Shown here one piece after another: positions 9,727-36,739 of a stretch of 37,366 nt of DNA. Numbering within the stretch: the stretch's first letter is position 1; each line of letters begins with the position of its first letter. The position numbers and the translations under genes are program-made. The DNA comes from Ignavibacteriota bacterium (lineage in GTDB: Bacteria > Bacteroidota > Ignavibacteria > UBA10030). The notes below the pieces were generated by a model. The model saw nothing but the letters and a program-made list of their open reading frames with translations. It did not search any database and was not told the DNA's origin. The stretch lies in the NCBI GenBank assembly GCA_003162695.1, contig PMML01000113.1, positions 1-37,366 of the forward strand. The letters are read 5' to 3'.

Positions 9727-11254
<1,528 letters not shown>

Positions 11255-17374: not shown

Positions 17375-19930
17375 CTACTTTGTTCCTTCTTCAACAAGAT
17401 CGTCGGTTTCTTTTTTGCTTTGATAAATTGCCCAGCCGATAGCAGTCGCGGCAACCACCGCAACAACGATACCGGTTAAAAGATCTGTTCCGCAAATGTT
17501 CGGTTTCGTAATATTGAATTTTAAAACCAATCCAAGCGTAAGCAAGCTGACCATATTCATAACCTTGATAAGCGGGTTAAGCGCAGGTCCTGCAGTATCT
17601 TTTAATGGATCGCCGACCGTATCACCGGTAACAGCGGCTTTATGCGCCTCTGAACCTTTACCGCCGTACAAGCCGTCTTCAATCATTTTCTTAGCATTAT
17701 CCCAGGCACCGCCGGCGTTTGCCATAAACACGGCGAGCAGCTGGCCAACAAGGATCGTTCCGGCAAGGAATCCGCCAAGCGCGTATGGTCCAAGTATGAA
17801 TCCGACCAGAATCGGAGTCATGATAGCGAGAAGGCCCGGTCCGATGAGTTCTTTTTGAGCGGTGTTCGTGCAAATATCGACCACACGCCCGTAATCCGGT
17901 TTTTTGGTGCCATTCCAGATTTCTGGATCGTGGAATTGAATGCGGCATTCTTTGACAATCCAGAATGCGGCACGACCGACGGCTCGAATCAGCATTCCGC
18001 TGAAGAGGAACGGCACTGCGCCGCCAAGCATGAATCCGATAAACACAGTCGGATTAGCAACAGTAATCTTACCGGCTTCTTCCAAATATTGTGAAATCTG
18101 CATCAGGTTAATTTTATCTTCGCTGCCGACGGCAATGACGGCGATGAAACTTGCAAAGAGCGAGACAGCTGCGATAACGGCTGAACCGATGGCAATACCT
18201 TTGGTTTCAGCTTTCGTCGTGTTGCCGACGGCATCGAGATCGGCAAGAATTTGCCGGGCGCGTTTATAACTGCCCGGTTTTTCTTTTTCCATCTCATCTT
18301 TGTCGTAACCCATTTCGCCGATACCATTCGCATTATCTGCTACCGGTCCGAACACGTCCATCGAAATGGTGTTGCCCGTCAGCGTCAACATACCGATACC
18401 GGTCATTGCCACGCCGTAGGCGATGAAGAGAGGAGGAGTGCCTGCATAGACCAGCACGGAGAGGAAAATTGCAACGGCAATAACAACGATTGCCGCAACG
18501 GTGCTTTCATAGCCGAGTGCAATTCCTTGAATAATGTTTGTTGCATGTCCTGTTGTACAGGCTTTCGCCAATCCCTTGACGGGCGAATGACTGGTATGCG
18601 TATAATAGCTGGTCACCTTGTTCAACGCTACGGCAAGAAAAATACCAATCATGCAGGTAAGGGCCGGACGCAGATCGAGATTCGGGATACCGAAATTTGC
18701 AATCCAGGGAAGCGAAATCGGCGTACCGTCGGCATGAAAGAATCCTGCAACTGCTGTCGGGTTGCTTGCAAAGTATGCTGCATCAAAATAGAGATAGCCG
18801 AATCCGAGTGCGACAAATCCAACGATACTGATTATAGAACCGATCCAGAATCCGCGGTGCACGCTTTTGAGAGCGGTATCTGAAGTATCGTCGGCGCCGG
18901 CTTTTACCGTATAAGTGCTGATGATGGAACCAAGAACGCCGATACCGCGGACGAGTAAGGGGAATATAACGCCCTTGTGCCCGAACGTTGCTAAACCGAG
19001 AATCATGGCGGCTACGATTGTGACTTCATAACTTTCAAAAATATCCGCTGCCATACCGGCGCAATCGCCGACGTTATCGCCGACGTTATCGGCAATTGTG
19101 GCTGCGTTGCGCGGATCGTCTTCCGGAATATCTTTTTCTATTTTACCGACAAGATCGGCGCCGACGTCTGCGGCTTTCGTGTAGATACCGCCGCCGACGC
19201 GCATAAACAATGCGATGAGTGTTCCGCCGAATCCGAATCCCAACAGGGCTTCGTATGCATGTTCACCGAACATCATGAAGATCAATGTTCCGCCAAGCAG
19301 ACCCAAACCGTCTGTAAGCATACCGGTGATAGTACCTGTGCGGTAACCGAGTTGAAGCGCTTCGCCGTAACTGCGTTTGGCGGCTGTTGCAACGCGAAGG
19401 TTTCCCTGCGTCGCAAGGCGCATACCGACAAATCCCACGAGGAAGCTGAAGATTGATCCGACAAGGAACGCGCCTGAACGTCCCCAGCGGAATGCATCGA
19501 TCGATCCCGTATAGGAAAAATAAAGGAACAGCGTTATAATAATGATCAATGGTCCGATCTTCTTAAACTGTGCTTTGAGATAGGCGTTTGAGCCTTCACG
19601 CACAGCGGCTGCAATCTCCTGCATTTTCTTCGTGCCTTGATCGGCTTTGCGCACTTGCTTGACAAGCATAAGTGCATAGAGCAAACCGGCAATGGCAATA
19701 CCGAGCACCGTAAGAAGTCCATAGATTTCAATGGGTTTAAAGTTGCTCTCGCTGCCGAACAGAGCAAACGGGCTGAATGATTCTTGCGCAACCGATGGTT
19801 CGTTGCTTTGGGTGTGGCCGGTGTATGGCATGAAGACATACGCAGCGACAAAAAAGATCATCATGGCCGCGAGATAGTTTCTTCGCGCACCACGAGAACT
19901 TGAAGCAATGATATTTCTCAGTTTATTCAT
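17375..19930 (-). CDS. hppA: Membrane-bound ion-translocating pyrophosphatase
   Basis: 851 aa; DVGADLVGKIEKDIPEDDPRNAATIADNVGDNVGDCAGMAADIFES, DAVGNTTKAETKGIAIGSA, NAGGAWDNAKKMIEDGLYGGKGSEAHKAAVTGDTVGDPLKDTAGPALNPLIK. Confidence 0.96.
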   Translation of the reverse strand: MNKLRNIIASSSRGARRNYLAAMMIFFVAAYVFMPYTGHTQSNEPSVAQESFSPFALFGSESNFKPIEIYGLLTVLGIAIAGLLYALMLVKQVRKADQGTKKMQEIAAAVREGSNAYLKAQFKKIGPLIIIITLFLYFSYTGSIDAFRWGRSGAFLVGSIFSFLVGFVGMRLATQGNLRVATAAKRSYGEALQLGYRTGTITGMLTDGLGLLGGTLIFMMFGEHAYEALLGFGFGGTLIALFMRVGGGIYTKAADVGADLVGKIEKDIPEDDPRNAATIADNVGDNVGDCAGMAADIFESYEVTIVAAMILGLATFGHKGVIFPLLVRGIGVLGSIISTYTVKAGADDTSDTALKSVHRGFWIGSIISIVGFVALGFGYLYFDAAYFASNPTAVAGFFHADGTPISLPWIANFGIPNLDLRPALTCMIGIFLAVALNKVTSYYTHTSHSPVKGLAKACTTGHATNIIQGIALGYESTVAAIVVIAVAIFLSVLVYAGTPPLFIAYGVAMTGIGMLTLTGNTISMDVFGPVADNANGIGEMGYDKDEMEKEKPGSYKRARQILADLDAVGNTTKAETKGIAIGSAVIAAVSLFASFIAVIAVGSEDKINLMQISQYLEEAGKITVANPTVFIGFMLGGAVPFLFSGMLIRAVGRAAFWIVKECRIQFHDPEIWNGTKKPDYGRVVDICTNTAQKELIGPGLLAIMTPILVGFILGPYALGGFLAGTILVGQLLAVFMANAGGAWDNAKKMIEDGLYGGKGSEAHKAAVTGDTVGDPLKDTAGPALNPLIKVMNMVSLLTLGLVLKFNITKPNICGTDLLTGIVVAVVAATAIGWAIYQSKKETDDLVEEGTK

Positions 19931-20371
19931 GTAAACATCCTGAATTTAGTGATTATGTGGTTTACTGTTGAAAAGAACTATTTTTATATCAGGGAAAACT
20001 TTTTTTTCGCGTCAGAGTTTTGTTTAAAAACAATAATTCCAATTTTCCCTCAATATTTAAAATCCCTCCATCTTTCCAAAAAATCAAGCCTTTTTTTATT
20101 AATTTTTTAAGTCTTTCTGTGGAGAGATTTTAAAATGCATAAAAATACAAAATCCGAGGTCTGCAGCGATTCGATGTGCCGCCTGAAAAATCCGGTCCGG
20201 CAAGGAGGCATTCGCCAGGATGGTGGAGGAACATTATTGCCATACATCATTTCCCGGAATTTTGATTGTCCTCGAAAACCGTTCTTGAATTGATCCGCCA
20301 ATGGATCCGGCTGTTGCAGGTTATCGCGGTGATTTTTTTACATCTTTTCTAAGTTTTTTTGCCGTAGTCTC

Positions 20372-20400
20372 TTGACAATGAAATGATAATTTACTATAGT
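20372..20400 (+). promoter_or_regulatory. trp operon promoter
   Basis: TTGACA (20372-20377), 17-nt spacer, TATAGT (20395-20400), immediately upstream of the Trp leader ORF. Confidence 0.8.
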
Positions 20401-20406
20401 AAAGTT

Positions 20407-20487
20407 ATGATTATACATGAATTATACAATCGGTTCGAGAACAAGGCTTGGTGGTGGTGGCGTCGGTCTGCGCTTCCGCTCGTATAA
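20407..20487 (+). CDS. trpL: trp operon leader peptide, MIIHELYNRFENKAWWWWRRSALPLV*
   Basis: 26-codon ORF with four consecutive TGG codons (20449-20460), 6 nt after the -10 element and followed by an intrinsic terminator, upstream of the trp operon. Below the ORF-track size cutoff. Confidence 0.88.
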   Translation: MIIHELYNRFENKAWWWWRRSALPLV

Positions 20488-20512
20488 TTCGTATCTAAAG
20501 AATTTAAAAGAA

Positions 20513-20547
20513 GGTGGAAACGTAGACGTAACGGTTCCGCCTTTTTT
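20513..20547 (+). terminator. trp attenuator terminator hairpin
   Basis: GGTGGAAACG TAGACGTAA CGGTTCCGCC followed by TTTTTT; one G-U pair and one mismatch in the stem; 26 nt after the leader stop and 140 nt before the trpB2 start. Confidence 0.87.
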
Positions 20548-20687
20548 GTTGTACCTGCCCGCAAAAAATCGTGAGAACCGCACTTACGAACCATTTTCAT
20601 CAAAAATTTTTATAATCAACGATGCACCCCCGGACAACGGAGCGCTGTCCCGGAAGTACAAAAATCATAAACTCAATGGAGGAATCT

Positions 20688-21989
20688 ATGCAAAGAAAAA
20701 TCATGCTCGAAGAAAAAGACATTCCGTCGCATTATTATAACATCCTGGCGGATCTTCCCAATCCGCTGGAGCCGGATCTTCATCCGGGAACCAAACAACC
20801 CGTCGGTCCGCAGGATCTTGCGCCGCTTTTTCCTATGGAATTGATCAAGCAGGAAGTCGGAACAGAGCGGTTCGTTCCCATACCGGACTCGGTACGCGAT
20901 GCGTATTCGCTCTATCGCCCGACGCCGTTGTATCGCGCTTACGAATTGGAGCGCGCATTGGATACTCCGGCGCATATCTATTATAAATATGAGGGAGTCA
21001 GTCCGGCCGGCAGCCATAAGCTGAATACTGCGCTGGCACAAGTATATTATAATAAAGAGCAGGGAGTTAAGCGTCTTGCAACGGAGACCGGCGCAGGCCA
21101 GTGGGGAAGTTCTCTGGCATTCGCATGCCAGCGGTTCGGATTGCAATGCAAGGTGTATATGGTCAAAGTAAGCTATGAGCAGAAACCGTATCGGCGTTCC
21201 ATGATCCAATTATGGGGAGGTGAAGTCGTAGCAAGTCCGAGTAATGAGACCAATGCCGGACGCGCAGTGCTGGCGAAAAATCCGAATTCCAGAGGCAGCC
21301 TCGGTATCGCCATCAGCGAAGCGGTTGAAGATGCGGCGGGCAGAGAAGATACGAAGTACGCGCTCGGCAGCGTGCTCAATCACGTTCTGCTCCATCAGAC
21401 AATTATCGGTCAGGAAGCAAAGAAACAAATGGAAATAGCCGGCGAGTATCCGGATCTTGTGATTGCATGCGTAGGCGGCGGTTCGAATTTCGGCGGAATC
21501 GCTCTGCCGTTTATTAAGGACAAAATTGAAGGGAAAAAACTGCGTGCTATTGCCGTCGAACCGGCTTCATGTCCGACGCTGACCAAAGGAGAATACCGCT
21601 ACGACTTCGGCGATGTTGCAGGAATGACGCCGCTCCTGCCGATGTATACGCTTGGTTCGGATTTTATGCCTCCATCGATCCATGCAGGCGGATTGCGTTA
21701 TCATGGAATGTCACCGATTATCAGCCGATTGTATCTGGACAAGCTTATTGAGGCGCAGGCTTATGAACAAACCAACGTGTTCGAGGCTGCCGTCCAATTT
21801 GCGCGCACGGAAGGAATTATTCCTGCGCCGGAATCGGCCCATGCGATACTTTCCGCTGTCGTAGAAGCAAAGAAAGCAAAAGCGGAAGGAACGAAGAAGG
21901 TCATATTGTTCAACTTGAGCGGTCATGGGCATTTTGATATGAGCGCCTACGATGCATACTTCTCCGGAAAACTTGGAAACGGTCAATAA
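20688..21989 (+). CDS. trpB2: TrpB-like pyridoxal-phosphate enzyme (TrpB2-type tryptophan synthase beta)
   Basis: 433 aa from ATG 20688 (SD GGAGGA at 20678-20683); [47 protein letters not shown], and the extended N-terminus typical of TrpB2 ([27 protein letters not shown]). Confidence 0.92.
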
Positions 21990-22036: not shown

Positions 22037-23533
22037 ATGATGATAACTTTTGAACAATTTAAAGAAGCGAGCACGCGCTACAATGTCCTCCCGCTGATGC
22101 GGACGGTGCTGGCCGATTTGCATACACCGGTGTCGTTGTATCTTGCCTTTCGGAACGGAAAGGCAAATTCTTTTTTACTGGAAAGCGTAGAACCGAGCGA
22201 GCGCATCGGACGGTTTTCGTTCGTCGGGGGGGATCCGCTTCTTCTCGTTACGGCAAATGACGGAGAAGTTACGATACGTTCGCATTCCGGAACGGAAACA
22301 CGCCGTGCGACGATCTTCGAGGTTCTGAAGCAGCTTGCTTCCGGGTTTCGGCAAATGCCGGTTCCGGAGTGGGAAGGCCTGAACGGAGGATTCATAGGCT
22401 ACATCGGATACGATTGTGTCGCACAGTTCGAACGAATCCCGCTGCAGAAAAAAACTCTGCCGGCTCCCGCCGATGCTCTTTTCGGATTGTTTGCATCGGT
22501 CGTAAAGTTCGATCATCGAAGACATTTGATTACGCTTATTCATAATGTGATCCTCGATCCCGAAAAAGATATCAGACAGCAATACGACGACGGCTGTGTG
22601 AAGATAGAGGAAATGATGTCGCATGTAAACAGCAATGTCCAGCCGGCGGAAACTTTTCAATGTGCGGTTCCGCATCCGGATTCCGGCGACAAACAGCGGT
22701 TTTGCAGTATCGTCGAACGGGCGAAGCATTCTATCCATGAAGGCGATATTTTTCAGGTCGTACTTTCCCGCAAAGTGTCTCTGAAGTATTCAGGCGATCC
22801 ATTCCCTGTTTACCGTGCGCTGCGTCTGATCAATCCCTCTCCGTATCTCTTCTTTATGGATTTCGATGCAGTAAAGCTGATCGGCTCATCGCCGGAAATA
22901 CTCGTGCGCGTTCAACGCCGCCATATAGAAGTCTTCCCGATTGCCGGCACACGCAAGCGCGGTGCTGCGGAAGAGGAGGATAACCGTCTTGAGCGCGAGT
23001 TAATGGCGGATGAAAAGGAATTGGCGGAGCATCACATGCTGATCGATCTTGGGCGGAATGATGTCGGGCGTGTGAGCGAATTCGGGAGTGTTCACGTTCC
23101 CGTGCAAAAAAGAGTAGACCGGTATTCTCATGTGATGCATATCGTTTCGGAAGTGCACGGTACACTGCGTTCGGATTTAACCGGCATCGATGCGCTGCAG
23201 GCATGTTTTCCGGCCGGTACGGTTTCCGGGGCGCCGAAGGTACGTGCCATGGAAATTATTGCCGAACTTGAACAGAACCGGCGCGGCATCTATGCCGGAG
23301 CTGCAGGTTATATCGGTTTCGACGAAACTATCGATATGTGCATTGCAATCCGTACCATTGTTGCAGCGGGAGACACTTTGAATGTGCAGGCAGGCGCCGG
23401 CATCGTAGCAGATTCTGTGCCGGAGAACGAGTTTCATGAAACGTACGCGAAATCCGCCGCACTGCTGGATGCAATAAAACTTGCTGCCGGAGATTTCGAT
23501 ATGGAGATTTTGACAAAACAAGGTGATGCATGA
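22037..23533 (+). CDS. trpE: Anthranilate synthase component I
   Basis: 498 aa; PSPYLFFMDFDAVKLIGSSPEILVRV, AGTRKRGAAEEEDNRLERELMADEKELAEHHMLIDLGRNDVGRV, CFPAGTVSGAPKVRAMEII. Confidence 0.96.
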   Translation: MMITFEQFKEASTRYNVLPLMRTVLADLHTPVSLYLAFRNGKANSFLLESVEPSERIGRFSFVGGDPLLLVTANDGEVTIRSHSGTETRRATIFEVLKQLASGFRQMPVPEWEGLNGGFIGYIGYDCVAQFERIPLQKKTLPAPADALFGLFASVVKFDHRRHLITLIHNVILDPEKDIRQQYDDGCVKIEEMMSHVNSNVQPAETFQCAVPHPDSGDKQRFCSIVERAKHSIHEGDIFQVVLSRKVSLKYSGDPFPVYRALRLINPSPYLFFMDFDAVKLIGSSPEILVRVQRRHIEVFPIAGTRKRGAAEEEDNRLERELMADEKELAEHHMLIDLGRNDVGRVSEFGSVHVPVQKRVDRYSHVMHIVSEVHGTLRSDLTGIDALQACFPAGTVSGAPKVRAMEIIAELEQNRRGIYAGAAGYIGFDETIDMCIAIRTIVAAGDTLNVQAGAGIVADSVPENEFHETYAKSAALLDAIKLAAGDFDMEILTKQGDA

Positions 23534-24099
23534 TTTTTGTCCTGGATAATTACGATTCGTTTACTTATAACCTTGTGCAGGTTGCCGGCAGCTTTACCAG
23601 GGATATAAAAGTCTTTCGCAATGATGCCATAGACATCGGAGCAATCAAAAGAATGCACCCGCGCGGCATCATCATTTCTCCGGGACCCGGCCGTCCGGAG
23701 CAGGCGGGCATTACGATGGATATTATCGGTGTTCTGGGGAGCACGATTCCGATTCTTGGCGTATGCCTCGGACATCAGGCAATCGGCGCTGTTTTCGGAG
23801 GAACGGTTACCTATGCACCGGAACTTGTGCATGGAAAAACATCGCGGATACGTCATAACGGTCAGGGAATTTTTGCAGGAGTCCCGGATCCTTTCGATGC
23901 AGGCCGGTACCACTCGCTTGTCGTTGCACGCGATCGCCTGCCCGATGAGCTCGAAGTCACGGCGCATACCGATGACGGGTTGATCATGGCGATGCGGCAC
24001 AGGAAATTTCCAATATGCGGCGTGCAATTTCATCCCGAATCCATATTGACGCCTGCGGGGAAAATAATTATTCAAAACTGGTTAGGGACCCTTCCATGA
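23530..24099 (+). CDS. trpG: Anthranilate synthase component II (glutamine amidotransferase)
   Basis: 189 aa; ISPGPGRPEQAG, LGVCLGHQAIG, VQFHPESILTPAG; ATGA overlap with trpE. Confidence 0.96.
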   Translation: MIFVLDNYDSFTYNLVQVAGSFTRDIKVFRNDAIDIGAIKRMHPRGIIISPGPGRPEQAGITMDIIGVLGSTIPILGVCLGHQAIGAVFGGTVTYAPELVHGKTSRIRHNGQGIFAGVPDPFDAGRYHSLVVARDRLPDELEVTAHTDDGLIMAMRHRKFPICGVQFHPESILTPAGKIIIQNWLGTLP

Positions 24100-25109
24100 A
24101 ATACTACATAGAAAAATGCCTCCACGGCGAACATCTGACGACTGAAGAAGCGTCTCGTGCGCTCGATATTATCATGAGCGGCAGCGCTGCGGACGTTCAA
24201 ATTGCCGGATTGCTTGTTGCGCTCAGAGCGAAAGGCGAAACAATAGATGAGATCGTCGGGTTTGCACAAACAATGCGTTCAAAATCCATCCGTATCTCAG
24301 TTGATGATTCCACAGCAATCGATATGTGCGGCACTGGAGGGGATGGTTCGGGTACATTCAATATTTCTACCGTTGCTTCGCTTGTTGCAGCCGGGGCCGG
24401 CGTGACAGTTGCCAAACACGGAAATAAATCCGTTTCCAGCAGGTGCGGCAGTGCGGATGTGTTGGCGGAACTCGGCGTTAAAATCGATCTCACTCCGGAG
24501 AAAGCGGCGGAGAGTATCAATTCCATCGGCATCGGATTTCTTTTTGCTCCGATGTTCCATCCCGCCATGAAATACGCAGGGAAGGCGCGAACCGAACTCG
24601 GCATACAAACCATCTTCAATATTCTCGGACCTTTAACGAATCCGGCGGGAGTCGACCGGCAATTGATAGGTACTTTCAATAACACGACGGCCGAAAAACT
24701 TGCTCATGCATCCCATTCGCTCGGATCGTGTCATGTGTGCGTCGTTCACAGCAAAGATGGGGTCGATGAAGTCGTGCTTTCCGGTACGACTTCCGTTCAT
24801 GAAATGCGCCGGAAACATCCGGTGAAATCGTACGAAGTCCACGCCGGGACATTTTGTCTGCCGTCTCATGTGCTTGACGGCCTGAAAAGTAGCGGCAAAG
24901 AAGAAAATGCGCGCATTGCATTACAGGTGCTCAACGGAGATCGTTCGCCTGCCCGCGATGTCGTTGTTGCCAACGCTGCGTTCGGTCTTTACGTCTCGGG
25001 AAAAGTCGATACTATCCGGGAGGGAGTTGCGGCCGGCGAGGAATCCATCGATTCCGGAAGAGCGCTGCGCAAACTGAATCAGCTCGTCGATTTTAGCAGG
25101 ACCGCATGA
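24096..25109 (+). CDS. trpD: Anthranilate phosphoribosyltransferase
   Basis: 337 aa from ATG 24096 (MKYYIEKCLHGEHLTTEEA), overlapping the trpG stop as ATGA; MCGTGGDGSGTFNISTVASLVAAGAGVTVAKHGNKSVSSRCGSADVLAELG. Confidence 0.96.
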   Translation: MKYYIEKCLHGEHLTTEEASRALDIIMSGSAADVQIAGLLVALRAKGETIDEIVGFAQTMRSKSIRISVDDSTAIDMCGTGGDGSGTFNISTVASLVAAGAGVTVAKHGNKSVSSRCGSADVLAELGVKIDLTPEKAAESINSIGIGFLFAPMFHPAMKYAGKARTELGIQTIFNILGPLTNPAGVDRQLIGTFNNTTAEKLAHASHSLGSCHVCVVHSKDGVDEVVLSGTTSVHEMRRKHPVKSYEVHAGTFCLPSHVLDGLKSSGKEENARIALQVLNGDRSPARDVVVANAAFGLYVSGKVDTIREGVAAGEESIDSGRALRKLNQLVDFSRTA

Positions 25110-25891
25110 CGATACTTGAGAAAATACTGGCACAGAAACGAATCGAAGTAGATTTTGCAAAAACAAAATTATCGCTGAACGATCTTCGGCAGCAGCCGCT
25201 GTATACCCGGAATTGCTTTTCGCTTGCCGAAGCCCTGCGCCGCAAGAAGATAGGAATTATTGCAGAAATAAAGCGGGCATCTCCGTCCAGGGGGGTCATA
25301 CGGGAAAATTTTCTTCCAGCGGTTTTTGCCCGCGCGTATGCGGAGAACGGAGCTGCAGCGATTTCCGTCTTGACCGATGTTCAGTTTTTTCAGGGGAACC
25401 TCGGAAATTTGCGCGATATCAGGAATTGTGTTTCGCTTCCGCTCTTGAGAAAAGACTTTATCGTTGAGGAATACCAGATTCATGAAGCAAAGGCGAACGG
25501 TGCCGATGCAGTTCTGCTGATTGCCGCGGCCCTGGAAAAAAATCTTCTCTCCGATCTTCATCAAGCCGCGACGGGAATCGGACTGGAAGTGCTTGTGGAG
25601 GTACACACACAGCAGGAACTTGAAAAATTTGATTTCGGTATTGTTAAGCTTGTCGGAATCAATAACCGCAATTTAAGTACGTTCGATGTCGATGTCTCGA
25701 CATCCCTTCGGCTCAAAGAATATGTGCCAGATGGAACTCTCGTCGTCAGCGAAAGCGGAATCGAATCGGCGGATCAATTGCTCCGCTTGGCATCCGGCGG
25801 CATTCATTCTTTTCTCATCGGCGAATCGTTCATGCGGGCGGAAGATCCCGGCGCAGCGCTTCGGGCTCTGCTGGAAGAGGTGCGGTCATGA
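25106..25891 (+). CDS. trpC: Indole-3-glycerol-phosphate synthase
   Basis: 261 aa; IIAEIKRASPSRGVI, LLRKDFIVEEYQIHEAKANGADAVLLIAA, GINNRNLSTFDVD, VSESGI; ATGA overlap with trpD. Confidence 0.96.
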   Translation: MTILEKILAQKRIEVDFAKTKLSLNDLRQQPLYTRNCFSLAEALRRKKIGIIAEIKRASPSRGVIRENFLPAVFARAYAENGAAAISVLTDVQFFQGNLGNLRDIRNCVSLPLLRKDFIVEEYQIHEAKANGADAVLLIAAALEKNLLSDLHQAATGIGLEVLVEVHTQQELEKFDFGIVKLVGINNRNLSTFDVDVSTSLRLKEYVPDGTLVVSESGIESADQLLRLASGGIHSFLIGESFMRAEDPGAALRALLEEVRS

Positions 25892-26505
25892 TCGTAAAGA
25901 TCTGCGGCATTACGAATCTGGACGATGCGAACATGGCCGCCGATTTGGGCGCGGATGCACTCGGATTTATTTTTGTGCCGTCCAGCCCGCGTTATATTCC
26001 GCCGGAGAAAGCCGCAGCCATTACTGCGCATCTGCCTGAATCTCTGGTCAGGGTTGGAGTTTTTGTCAATGCGGGCCGGCGGGAAATTCTTGAGACGGTC
26101 GAAAAAGCAGGCGTAAACTGTCTGCAGCTGCATGGCGACGAATCACCGGATGATGTAAAAGATTTTGCACTGCCCGTGTGGAAAGCATTTCGGATCTCGG
26201 ACCGGTTTGATCCGCAGGCGCTTGATGCATATTCTGCGGAAGCATATCTGCTCGATACGTTCAGTCCGGATTCATACGGGGGAACGGGCAGAACGTTCGA
26301 CTGGAATATTGCTCGCCGGCTGAACACGGATCGGAAAATTATTTTAAGCGGCGGATTGAATCCGGAAAATATCGCCCGTGCTGTCGAACATATCCGTCCG
26401 TACGGAGTGGATGTCAACAGCGGCGTCGAGCAGCAGCCCGGGAAAAAAAATGCGGAACTGCTCCGGAGATTGTTTGTCAATATCAGAAATGTGCAAACTG
26501 CATAA
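25888..26505 (+). CDS. trpF: Phosphoribosylanthranilate isomerase
   Basis: 205 aa; VKICGITNLDDANMAADLGADALGFIFVPSSPRYI, LQLHGDES, LSGGLNPENI, GVDVNSGVE; ATGA overlap with trpC. Confidence 0.96.
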   Translation: MIVKICGITNLDDANMAADLGADALGFIFVPSSPRYIPPEKAAAITAHLPESLVRVGVFVNAGRREILETVEKAGVNCLQLHGDESPDDVKDFALPVWKAFRISDRFDPQALDAYSAEAYLLDTFSPDSYGGTGRTFDWNIARRLNTDRKIILSGGLNPENIARAVEHIRPYGVDVNSGVEQQPGKKNAELLRRLFVNIRNVQTA

Positions 26506-26653
26506 AAGCTGTTTGATAAAATTATCCGACCCGGCCGGCGGATGAATATCCGGTCGAAACAGTTCTTTGACCGGCCGTGCGAGTCCGGGTATCGATCATT
26601 CAAAGGCCTACTGGATCTTCATGCGATGTTAAATTATTTATGATATCCTGTTT

Positions 26654-27859
26654 ATGATGAAAAAAAGAAAAAAATATTCATATCCCGATAAACGCGGGTA
26701 TTTTGGGGAATTCGGCGGAAGGTACGTTCCGGAGACCCTCATGAATGCGCTTTTTGAACTGGAAGCGCTGTATGCAAGGGCAAAGCGCGATCCGAAATTC
26801 CATGCGGAATATATTTCGATTCTCCGTGAATATGCCGGCAGGCCGACGCCGTTGACGTACGCCGGAAGATTGACGAATCATTATGGAAAGGCGAGGATAT
26901 ATCTAAAGCGGGAAGACCTGTGTCACACCGGAGCGCATAAGATAAATAATGTCGTGGGACAGATGCTGCTGGCAAAAAGATCGGGGAAAACTCGCATTAT
27001 TGCGGAAACCGGGGCGGGTCAGCATGGAGTGGCAACCGCAACGGTAGCTGCAAAATTCGGATACCGGTGCATCGTGTATATGGGGCAAGAGGATGTGCAG
27101 CGTCAAAGCTTGAATGTGCATCGTATGAAAATGCTGGGGGCGGAAGTCCGGACCGTAACGACCGGCAGCCGTACATTGAAAGATGCGACAAGTGAAGCAA
27201 TCCGCGATTGGGTGACGAATGTCCCGGATACATTTTATGTGATCGGTTCTGTCGTCGGTCCGCATCCGTATCCGATGATGGTCCGGGATTTTCAATCGAT
27301 CATCGGCAAAGAAACAAAAAAACAATTCGACGGAATTCCTTCCTATCTTGTCGCGTGTGTCGGCGGCGGAAGCAATGCGATGGGAATGTTTTACCCGTTC
27401 ATCAAGGATTCTGTTCGCATGATCGGTGTGGAAGCGGCAGGAGAGGGATTGGAGAGCGATCGTCATGCTGCAACGCTCTCAAAAGGCAGACCCGGAGTGC
27501 TGCACGGAACGTTCAGCTATTTACTGCAGGATATGAACGGGCAGGTTTCTCTGGCGCATTCCATTTCAGCGGGACTCGATTATCCCGGCGTCGGTCCCGA
27601 ACATAGTTTTTTGAAAACATCAAAGAGAGTCTTGTATGCTGCCGTTTCCGACATACAGGCTCTTCGGGCGGCTGAATTATTGTCGCAGACCGAAGGTATC
27701 ATACCTGCGCTTGAATCGGCGCATGCGGTTGCATATTTAGAAACGCTGATGCCTAAAACGCGAAAGAACGATTCCGTGATTATTTGCTTATCCGGACGCG
27801 GAGACAAAGACATGCAAACGTATATGAAAAATATTTCCAAAGAAGGAACGCGCCCGTGA
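26654..27859 (+). CDS. trpB: Tryptophan synthase beta subunit
   Basis: 401 aa; [61 protein letters not shown]. Confidence 0.96.
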
Positions 27860-28638
27860 ATAGAATAGACGCTGTTCTTCGAACATTAAAGGAAAAAAGG
27901 GAAAAGGCTTTGACATTGTTTGTCACTGCAGGATTTCCTGAACTTGAGTCCACCGTACCCCTGGTTCTCGAACTTGTTCGGGCAGGCGCGGATATTATTG
28001 AAATTGGAATGCCATTCTCAGATCCTTTGGCCGACGGTCCCGTTATTCAGGAAAGTTCTCATCGGGCTCTTCGCAACGGCATCACGCTTAAAAAGATTCT
28101 TTCGCAAGTGATTGAAATCCGCCGTTCCACGGAGGTTCCCCTTGTGCTGATGGGCTATCTTACACCGATTCTTTCGTACGGCGCTCAGCAGTTCTTTTCC
28201 GATGCTGCGCGTGCCGGAGTCGATGGAATGATACTGCCGGAAGCGCCTCTTGAGGAATCGGAGCATTACACCGATCTGGCGGCCGGCAACGGTATGTGCT
28301 TTATCCAGATGGTCAGTCCTGCAACGCCGGCCGCACGAATGAAAATAATCGACAGGCATGCAAACGGTTTTGTTTACTGTGTATCCCATACCGGTGTTAC
28401 CGGAAACTCTCAAAGCAAAACAAAGATCGATTATCTCCGGCAGGTCGCGAAAAATATCAAGAGAAAACCTATTTTGATCGGATTTGGAATTAGCTCGTTC
28501 CGTGATGTAAGCGGTATAAAAAAATATGCCGCAGGCGTGATTATCGGCAGCGCGCTGCTTACCAAGCTTGCCGGGGGTGAAGGGAAGATTTCCATTAAAA
28601 GGTGGATTTCAGATATCAAAGAAGAATGCCGGAAGTAA
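27856..28638 (+). CDS. trpA: Tryptophan synthase alpha subunit
   Basis: 260 aa from GTG 27856 overlapping the trpB stop (GTGA); [61 protein letters not shown]. Confidence 0.94.
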
Positions 28639-35569: not shown

Positions 35570-36739
35570 TTATAAGACGGAAAAAATCGCAAATTTCAGA
35601 TATCTGGTCTCCGGCATCGCCGGATGAATCGGGTGATCCGGACCGGCGCCGTGGAACTCCAGCAATTGTATCTTGCGTCCGCGTTTAACGGCCGATTGCT
35701 GTATAACGTCAAGGAAAGCTTCTTCCATGACATGGTGAGAGCACGATGAAGTGATAAGGAATCCGCATTTGTTGATCAGTCCGAAGGCGCGCGTATGAAT
35801 TTCTTTGTATCCTTTTAATGCAGTTGCGATGGTCTTTTTGCTTTTTGTAAACGACGGTGGATCGAGTATGACCACGTCAAAGCGTTCGTTCTGAATGTCG
35901 AATTTCTGAAGAAGATCGAATGCGTCTCCCGTAAGGAAAGAAATATTTTCGACCTGATTTAAATGAGCATTGGTCGATGCGTGGGCAATGGCTGGCTCGG
36001 AACTATCGACTGCGGTGATTGCTGTTGCGCCGCCCTTTGCGGCGTGCATGGAAAATCCGCCCTCATTGCAGAAACAATCGAGTACATGAGCCCCGGCGCA
36101 ATAGCGGCGAATGAATTTTCTGTTCTCCCGCTGATCCAGAAAAAATCCTGTTTTTTGTCCGTTAAAGACATCGACGGAAAATTTTACATTGTCTTCCGCG
36201 ATAATGGTTTTCTCGACGGTTCCACGGAGTATTTTCTTTTCCTGCGGCAGATGTTCCAGCGCGCGTGCACCCACATCGTTCCTTGCAACGATTGCTTTGG
36301 GGTGGAACATATCTTCGAGAACACTGCAGATCGTATCGAGATGGGTTTCCATCCCTGCCGAGAGGATTTGCAGAGACAGGTATTCGTTATACCGGTCGAT
36401 GATCAGGCCGGGCAAAAAATCGCTTTCCCCGTAGACCATGCGATAGGCCGCCGCCTCCGGAGCGAACTTCTGCCGAAGAGCGTTTGCTCTGAGGATGCGT
36501 TTTTCAAAAAAAGCCGGTGAAATCTCTTCGCGGTTCGTCGAGAGCAGGCGAAAGGCGATAAGAGAATGCGGATTAAAAAAACCGACACCGAGGAATTTTT
36601 CGTCGGCCCGGAGCAGTTCCACAACGCTGCCGGATTCGGGATTGCCCCGGAGAGATGCAATCTCGTTGCTGAAAATCCACAAATGCCCTCCGGCAATGCG
36701 GTGTTCTTCGTTTTTCTTTAAGACTATTTGATTTTTCAT
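35570..36739 (-). CDS. Class I SAM-dependent rRNA methyltransferase, RlmI-like (PUA + methyltransferase)
   Basis: 389 aa; PUA-like N-terminus (VLKKNEEHRIAGGHLWIFSNEI), NGQKTGFFLDQRENR, VLDCFCNEGGFSMHAAKGGA, VILDPPSFTKSKK, TSSCSHHV. Confidence 0.92.
   Translation of the reverse strand: MKNQIVLKKNEEHRIAGGHLWIFSNEIASLRGNPESGSVVELLRADEKFLGVGFFNPHSLIAFRLLSTNREEISPAFFEKRILRANALRQKFAPEAAAYRMVYGESDFLPGLIIDRYNEYLSLQILSAGMETHLDTICSVLEDMFHPKAIVARNDVGARALEHLPQEKKILRGTVEKTIIAEDNVKFSVDVFNGQKTGFFLDQRENRKFIRRYCAGAHVLDCFCNEGGFSMHAAKGGATAITAVDSSEPAIAHASTNAHLNQVENISFLTGDAFDLLQKFDIQNERFDVVILDPPSFTKSKKTIATALKGYKEIHTRAFGLINKCGFLITSSCSHHVMEEAFLDVIQQSAVKRGRKIQLLEFHGAGPDHPIHPAMPETRYLKFAIFSVL

Follow-up and report, generated by a model that had tools for sequence, protein, structure and literature searches.

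A ribosome-mediated trp attenuator in an Ignavibacteriota bacterium, with a leader peptide whose mRNA is very probably leaderless or almost leaderless

In the trp attenuator of Escherichia coli, trpL carries consecutive Trp codons, its transcript adopts alternative 1:2, 2:3 and 3:4 pairings, and the terminator is U-tailed; the trpL mRNA has a 5' UTR and a Shine-Dalgarno (SD) sequence. In Sinorhizobium meliloti, the 5' end of rnTrpL is the ATG of trpL itself (PMC7298713), and trpL1 of Streptomyces lividans, which lies before trpE, is reported to be transcribed leaderless (PMC8079986). In mycobacteria, leaderless polycysteine ORFs function as attenuators (work cited in PMC9031893), and the leader of ilvBNC in Corynebacterium glutamicum is discussed as leaderless (PMC11857589). 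The window analysed here, the whole 37,366-nucleotide stretch of DNA from an Ignavibacteriota bacterium, carries a promoter, a Trp leader ORF and a set of competing RNA structures upstream of a trp operon, and all of these are conserved in relatives.

Leader peptide, trp operon and attenuator structures

The leader ORF (20407 to 20487, + strand) encodes 26 residues, MIIHELYNRFENKAWWWWRRSALPLV, followed by a stop codon, and homologous WWW leaders occur in relatives. It contains four consecutive Trp (UGG) codons (20449 to 20460, +), the putative sensing site, and is a short ORF located 5' of the trp genes. The first structural gene is of the trpB2 type (20688 to 21989, +); its product belongs to the PLP-dependent enzyme family, and it has an SD of its own, TGGAGGA. 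It is followed by trpE-trpG-trpD-trpC-trpF-trpB-trpA (22037 to 28638, +), which gives the order trpB2-E-G-D-C-F-B-A after the leader. TrpE was identified by confirmed domains, and trpG, D, C, F, B and A were named from their translations. Because trpB2 itself has an SD, the missing SD is specific to the leader. The operon includes two TrpB genes, the TrpB2-type gene directly behind the attenuator and a standard TrpB at 26654-27859. By TrpB2 homology, the closest relatives that carry a name are 'Ignavibacteriae', 'Ignavibacteriales' or 'Bacteroidetes' bacteria assembled from metagenomes, which points to an Ignavibacteria-like host.

An intrinsic terminator with a T-run (regions 3:4, 20507 to 20548, +) sits between the leader and the first gene, and alone it has a z-score of -3.6 against shuffles. 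Region 2 (20466 to 20480, +) falls inside the leader ORF, in the codons for SALP, and pairs with 20514-20527, so that the antiterminator overlaps the leader ORF and shares the 5' arm of the terminator. This 2:3 structure has a folding energy of -21.7 kcal/mol when the first Trp codon is masked and the terminator 3' arm is not yet made. The 1:2 structure (20417 to 20492, +) is formed by 20417-20427 with 20482-20492 and by inner stems of 20453-20463 with 20470-20480. Folding predicts that it forms when no ribosome is present, leaving the first 10 nt, including the AUG, unpaired, and that the terminator (20507-20547) forms, followed by the Ts, when a ribosome is at the stop codon.

The pairs of the antiterminator are kept in 87% of cells across 15 sequences, with changes on both sides. 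At 20469:20524, for example, the 15 relatives have C-G (8), G-C (6) or T-A (1). In most same-order relatives the terminator lies about 20-26 nt 3' of the leader stop codon, and antiterminator z-scores range from about -3 to -5.7. Antiterminator scores were weak at two loci (L015 and L028), and at four others (L011, L013, L017 and L020) no clean terminator or antiterminator was found by folding and shuffle z-scores. The Rfam Trp leader covariance model gave no match, at the gathering score or up to an E-value of 5. As predicted from these pairings, the switch downstream of the promoter is a classical ribosome-mediated trp attenuator with the textbook layout.

Promoter position and its conservation

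The -35 element TTGACA (20372 to 20377, +) and the -10 element TATAGT (20395 to 20400, +) are separated by 17 nt and form a near-consensus sigma70 promoter. When the sequence upstream of this site was shuffled 300 times, no shuffle reached the score of the promoter, and it is the only + strand promoter-like site with at least 10 of 12 matches within 19800-21000; the same -35 hexamer, as TTGACA or TTGACT/G, is found in relatives. Elsewhere in the window, a SAM riboswitch (11133-11253, - strand) has a TTGACA-17-TATATT promoter upstream (11346-11318, -), which is consistent with the presence of canonical sigma70 promoters in this genome.

Six nucleotides, AAAGTT, separate the end of the -10 element from the leader ATG (20407-20409). 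The seventh base after the -10 element is the A at 20407 and is preceded by T, a pyrimidine-purine initiator at the preferred start position. From this distance and the initiator, transcription is predicted to start at the A of the leader ATG (20407, +), giving a 5' UTR of 0 nt. The initial annotation had placed a normal +1 on or near this ATG and had seen no room for an SD before it. Its numbers are right: no SD-like string lies 5' of the leader ATG, and the 6-nt gap is too short to hold one. It had also held that no other in-frame start precedes the Trp codons. This is correct from 20407 onwards, where no ATG, GTG or TTG occurs, but an in-frame ATG exists at 20383, inside the promoter spacer. 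Since it lies upstream of the -10 element, this ATG should be absent from the transcript, and it was rejected as an alternative leader start.

The initial annotation proposed conservation of the -10 to ATG distance as a check. The set of relatives was assembled solely on TrpB2 protein homology and not by promoter; a Trp leader ORF was then sought 5' of the gene, and among the promoters within 70 nt of the leader the best was scored with no distance preferred. Among 17 same-order leaders, which include close relatives (four from one genus), the gaps are 6, 9, 9, 9, 9, 9, 9, 7, 9, 8, 8, 17, 11, 10, 9, 11 and 11 nt. The distance is therefore kept at 6-11 nt in 16 of the 17, the exception being L019 with 17 nt. 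The promoter spacer is 17 nt in all of them, and an SD is present in none. With L002 added to the order set, 18 promoters were tabulated, and 17 of them predict a 5' UTR of 0-6 nt.

Other families vary. The outlying family f3 (L022 and L023) has similar Trp leaders with a -10 to ATG gap of 24-25 nt, a predicted 5' UTR of about 18 nt and no SD. In family f14, promoters are of the Bacteroidota type TAnnTTTG, the ATG follows the scored hexamer by 6-10 nt, and some of the leaders have no clear promoter.

Since the narrow gap and the 17-nt-spaced promoter are kept in 16 of 17 same-order relatives, a 5' UTR of 0-6 nt is very probable for the trp leader mRNA, which would make it leaderless or almost leaderless. 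The leaderless transcript proposed at the outset thus agrees with the anatomy of the locus and with the conserved gap; its strict form is less well served, as the exact +1 is a prediction and several relatives have a predicted 5' UTR of 2-6 nt instead of 0. Because the 9-11 nt gaps of many relatives predict such short 5' UTRs, strict leaderlessness does not appear to be universal. Nor does leaderlessness appear to be essential to the attenuator, since the gap is longer in L019 and in f3. Overall, the sequence data are best explained by a ribosome-mediated trp attenuator in which the mRNA of the leader peptide is leaderless or near-leaderless, and this can be put forward with considerable confidence.

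The proposed mechanism can be described as follows. RNA polymerase would start at the A of the leader AUG (20407) or very close to it, and a ribosome would initiate on this 5'-terminal AUG without an SD; 70S binding has been described for leaderless mRNAs (PMC9031893). When Trp-tRNA is scarce, the ribosome would stall at the UGG run, and region 2, being free, would pair with the 5' arm of the terminator and allow readthrough into trpB2EGDCFBA. When Trp is plentiful, the ribosome would reach the stop codon and cover region 2, the terminator would form, and transcription would end near 20548. It can be inferred from this layout that the attenuator responds to Trp.

Other leaders with a similar layout were found by pattern searches limited to short gaps, which speak for their existence only. 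In relatives, trpE-like genes are preceded by a further group of Trp leaders that has a near-leaderless layout (L157, L158, L160, L161, L163 and L165) and mostly a different terminator (AACCCTTCC...). Genomes of family f6 contain His-rich leader ORFs whose ATG lies 8-9 nt 3' of the -10 element (L180, L181, L182, L183, L184 and L185), and one His-rich leader (G057, L162) is upstream of hisG. The f6 leaders are possible leaderless his attenuators. No His leader was found at hisG in the genome of the window, where a TrpR-family gene precedes hisG instead.

Alternative explanations and the palindrome over the -10 element

Short 5' UTRs without an SD are common in Bacteroidota, and the leader could be translated from one of about 7-25 nt if transcription began further upstream or at an additional promoter. 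The f3 leaders and L019, with their longer gaps and no SD, fit this explanation, as does the modest use of SDs in the genome (86 of the 285 first-ATG starts have one, where shuffled sequence would give 50). However, no other + strand promoter-like site with at least 10 of 12 matches is present in 19800-20407, and the near-consensus promoter and the narrow gap are kept across genera whereas the surrounding sequence is not. A short 5' UTR of this kind is therefore considered unlikely.

A second alternative concerns a perfect 14-bp palindrome, TTTACTATAGTAAA, which covers the -10 element (20390 to 20403) and is a candidate operator of the HisR/TrpR family. The HisR consensus is cacTTTAnnnnnnTAAAgtg, with the core TTTA-N6-TAAA (PMC9413887); the trp palindrome matches this core, its outer bases agree only partly, and a TrpR-family regulator is present in the genome. 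Exact matches to TTTACYATRGTAAA number two in the genome, one at the trp promoter and the other at the promoter of the his operon, in which a TrpR/YerC-family gene comes first and hisG follows. The his-operon palindrome, TTTACCATAGTAAA (L262 position 1500; G000:C14:16865-16878), is nearly identical to TTTACTATAGTAAA. It may be supposed from these two sites, and from the YerC/TrpR-family gene at the head of the his operon, that a repressor bound to the palindrome is the main control of initiation and that the attenuator is secondary or decayed. This is judged quite improbable, given that the attenuator is intact and conserved, that the palindrome is missing at trp in most relatives, and that a repressor and an attenuator can coexist, as in E. 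coli. The trp promoter of L009 has the same palindrome. As a family-wide feature the palindrome was rejected, since only 3 of the 32 genomes have it and its location is not consistently trp or his.

On the basis of the two matching sites, his and trp might share a repressor. A broader scheme, which is tentative and leans towards doubtful, suggests that leaderless or near-leaderless sensor ORFs were the ancestral rule for trp and his attenuators in an Ignavibacteria-like lineage and persisted through a change of promoter type, the HisR/TrpR-family site adding a cross-pathway layer here. If this is true, one regulator would control the initiation of his and trp transcription, and the leaderless attenuator would control the elongation of trp transcription.

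In an AT-rich intergenic region, the promoter and the ATG might also lie at this distance by chance. Genome-wide, 48 loose promoter-plus-near-ATG matches (25 in a reversed-pattern control), most of those examined heading no recognisable gene, might suggest such a coincidence. It is refuted by the comparative data and can be given almost no weight, because the promoter, the narrow gap, the Trp leader peptide downstream, the antiterminator and the terminator recur in relatives. No claim of genome-wide leaderlessness is made, since the loose matches exceed the control only about twofold and most of them do not mark the start of a gene; strong promoters in a 400-kb sample (19) were too few for a gap distribution. 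A second candidate near-leaderless start was observed at an rRNA-methyltransferase-like gene (35570-36739, - strand), with TTGACT-17-TAAGTT and the ATG (36739) 5 nt later.

Comparison with described attenuators

A limited literature search found no report of a leaderless Trp attenuator in Ignavibacteria, which is weak evidence. The initial annotation regarded leaderless initiation as a distinct mechanistic variant. This part of its proposal does not hold: since leaderless trpL is already found in S. meliloti and S. lividans, the attenuator in the window is not a new mechanism and is a well-conserved further example in another phylum. It shares with E. coli trpL the consecutive Trp codons, the three alternative pairings and the U-tailed terminator, and differs in that its AUG is predicted at or near the 5' end. 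The trpLE(G) attenuator of S. meliloti (rnTrpL/peTrpL) likewise has a Trp leader ORF at the 5' end of the transcript and ribosome-mediated attenuation (PMC7298713); however, it belongs to an alphaproteobacterium, its peptide has 14 aa, it controls trpE(G) alone, and trans functions of its sRNA and peptide are known. The trpL1-trpE system of S. lividans is similar in its WWW leader peptide, hairpins and U-rich terminator (PMC8079986), whereas its trpE is monocistronic and its host is an actinobacterium, from a group rich in leaderless mRNAs. The mycobacterial polycysteine ORFs and the ilvBNC leader of C. glutamicum are alike as leaderless sensor ORFs for amino-acid genes, for other amino acids and in other phyla. 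With the locus described here, leaderless Trp attenuators, so far known in Alphaproteobacteria and Actinobacteria, would reach a third deep lineage, and comparative data support this. Moreover, families with predicted 5' UTRs of 0-6 nt and of about 18 nt before homologous Trp leaders offer a natural contrast for asking whether a 5'-terminal AUG changes the timing of the attenuator.
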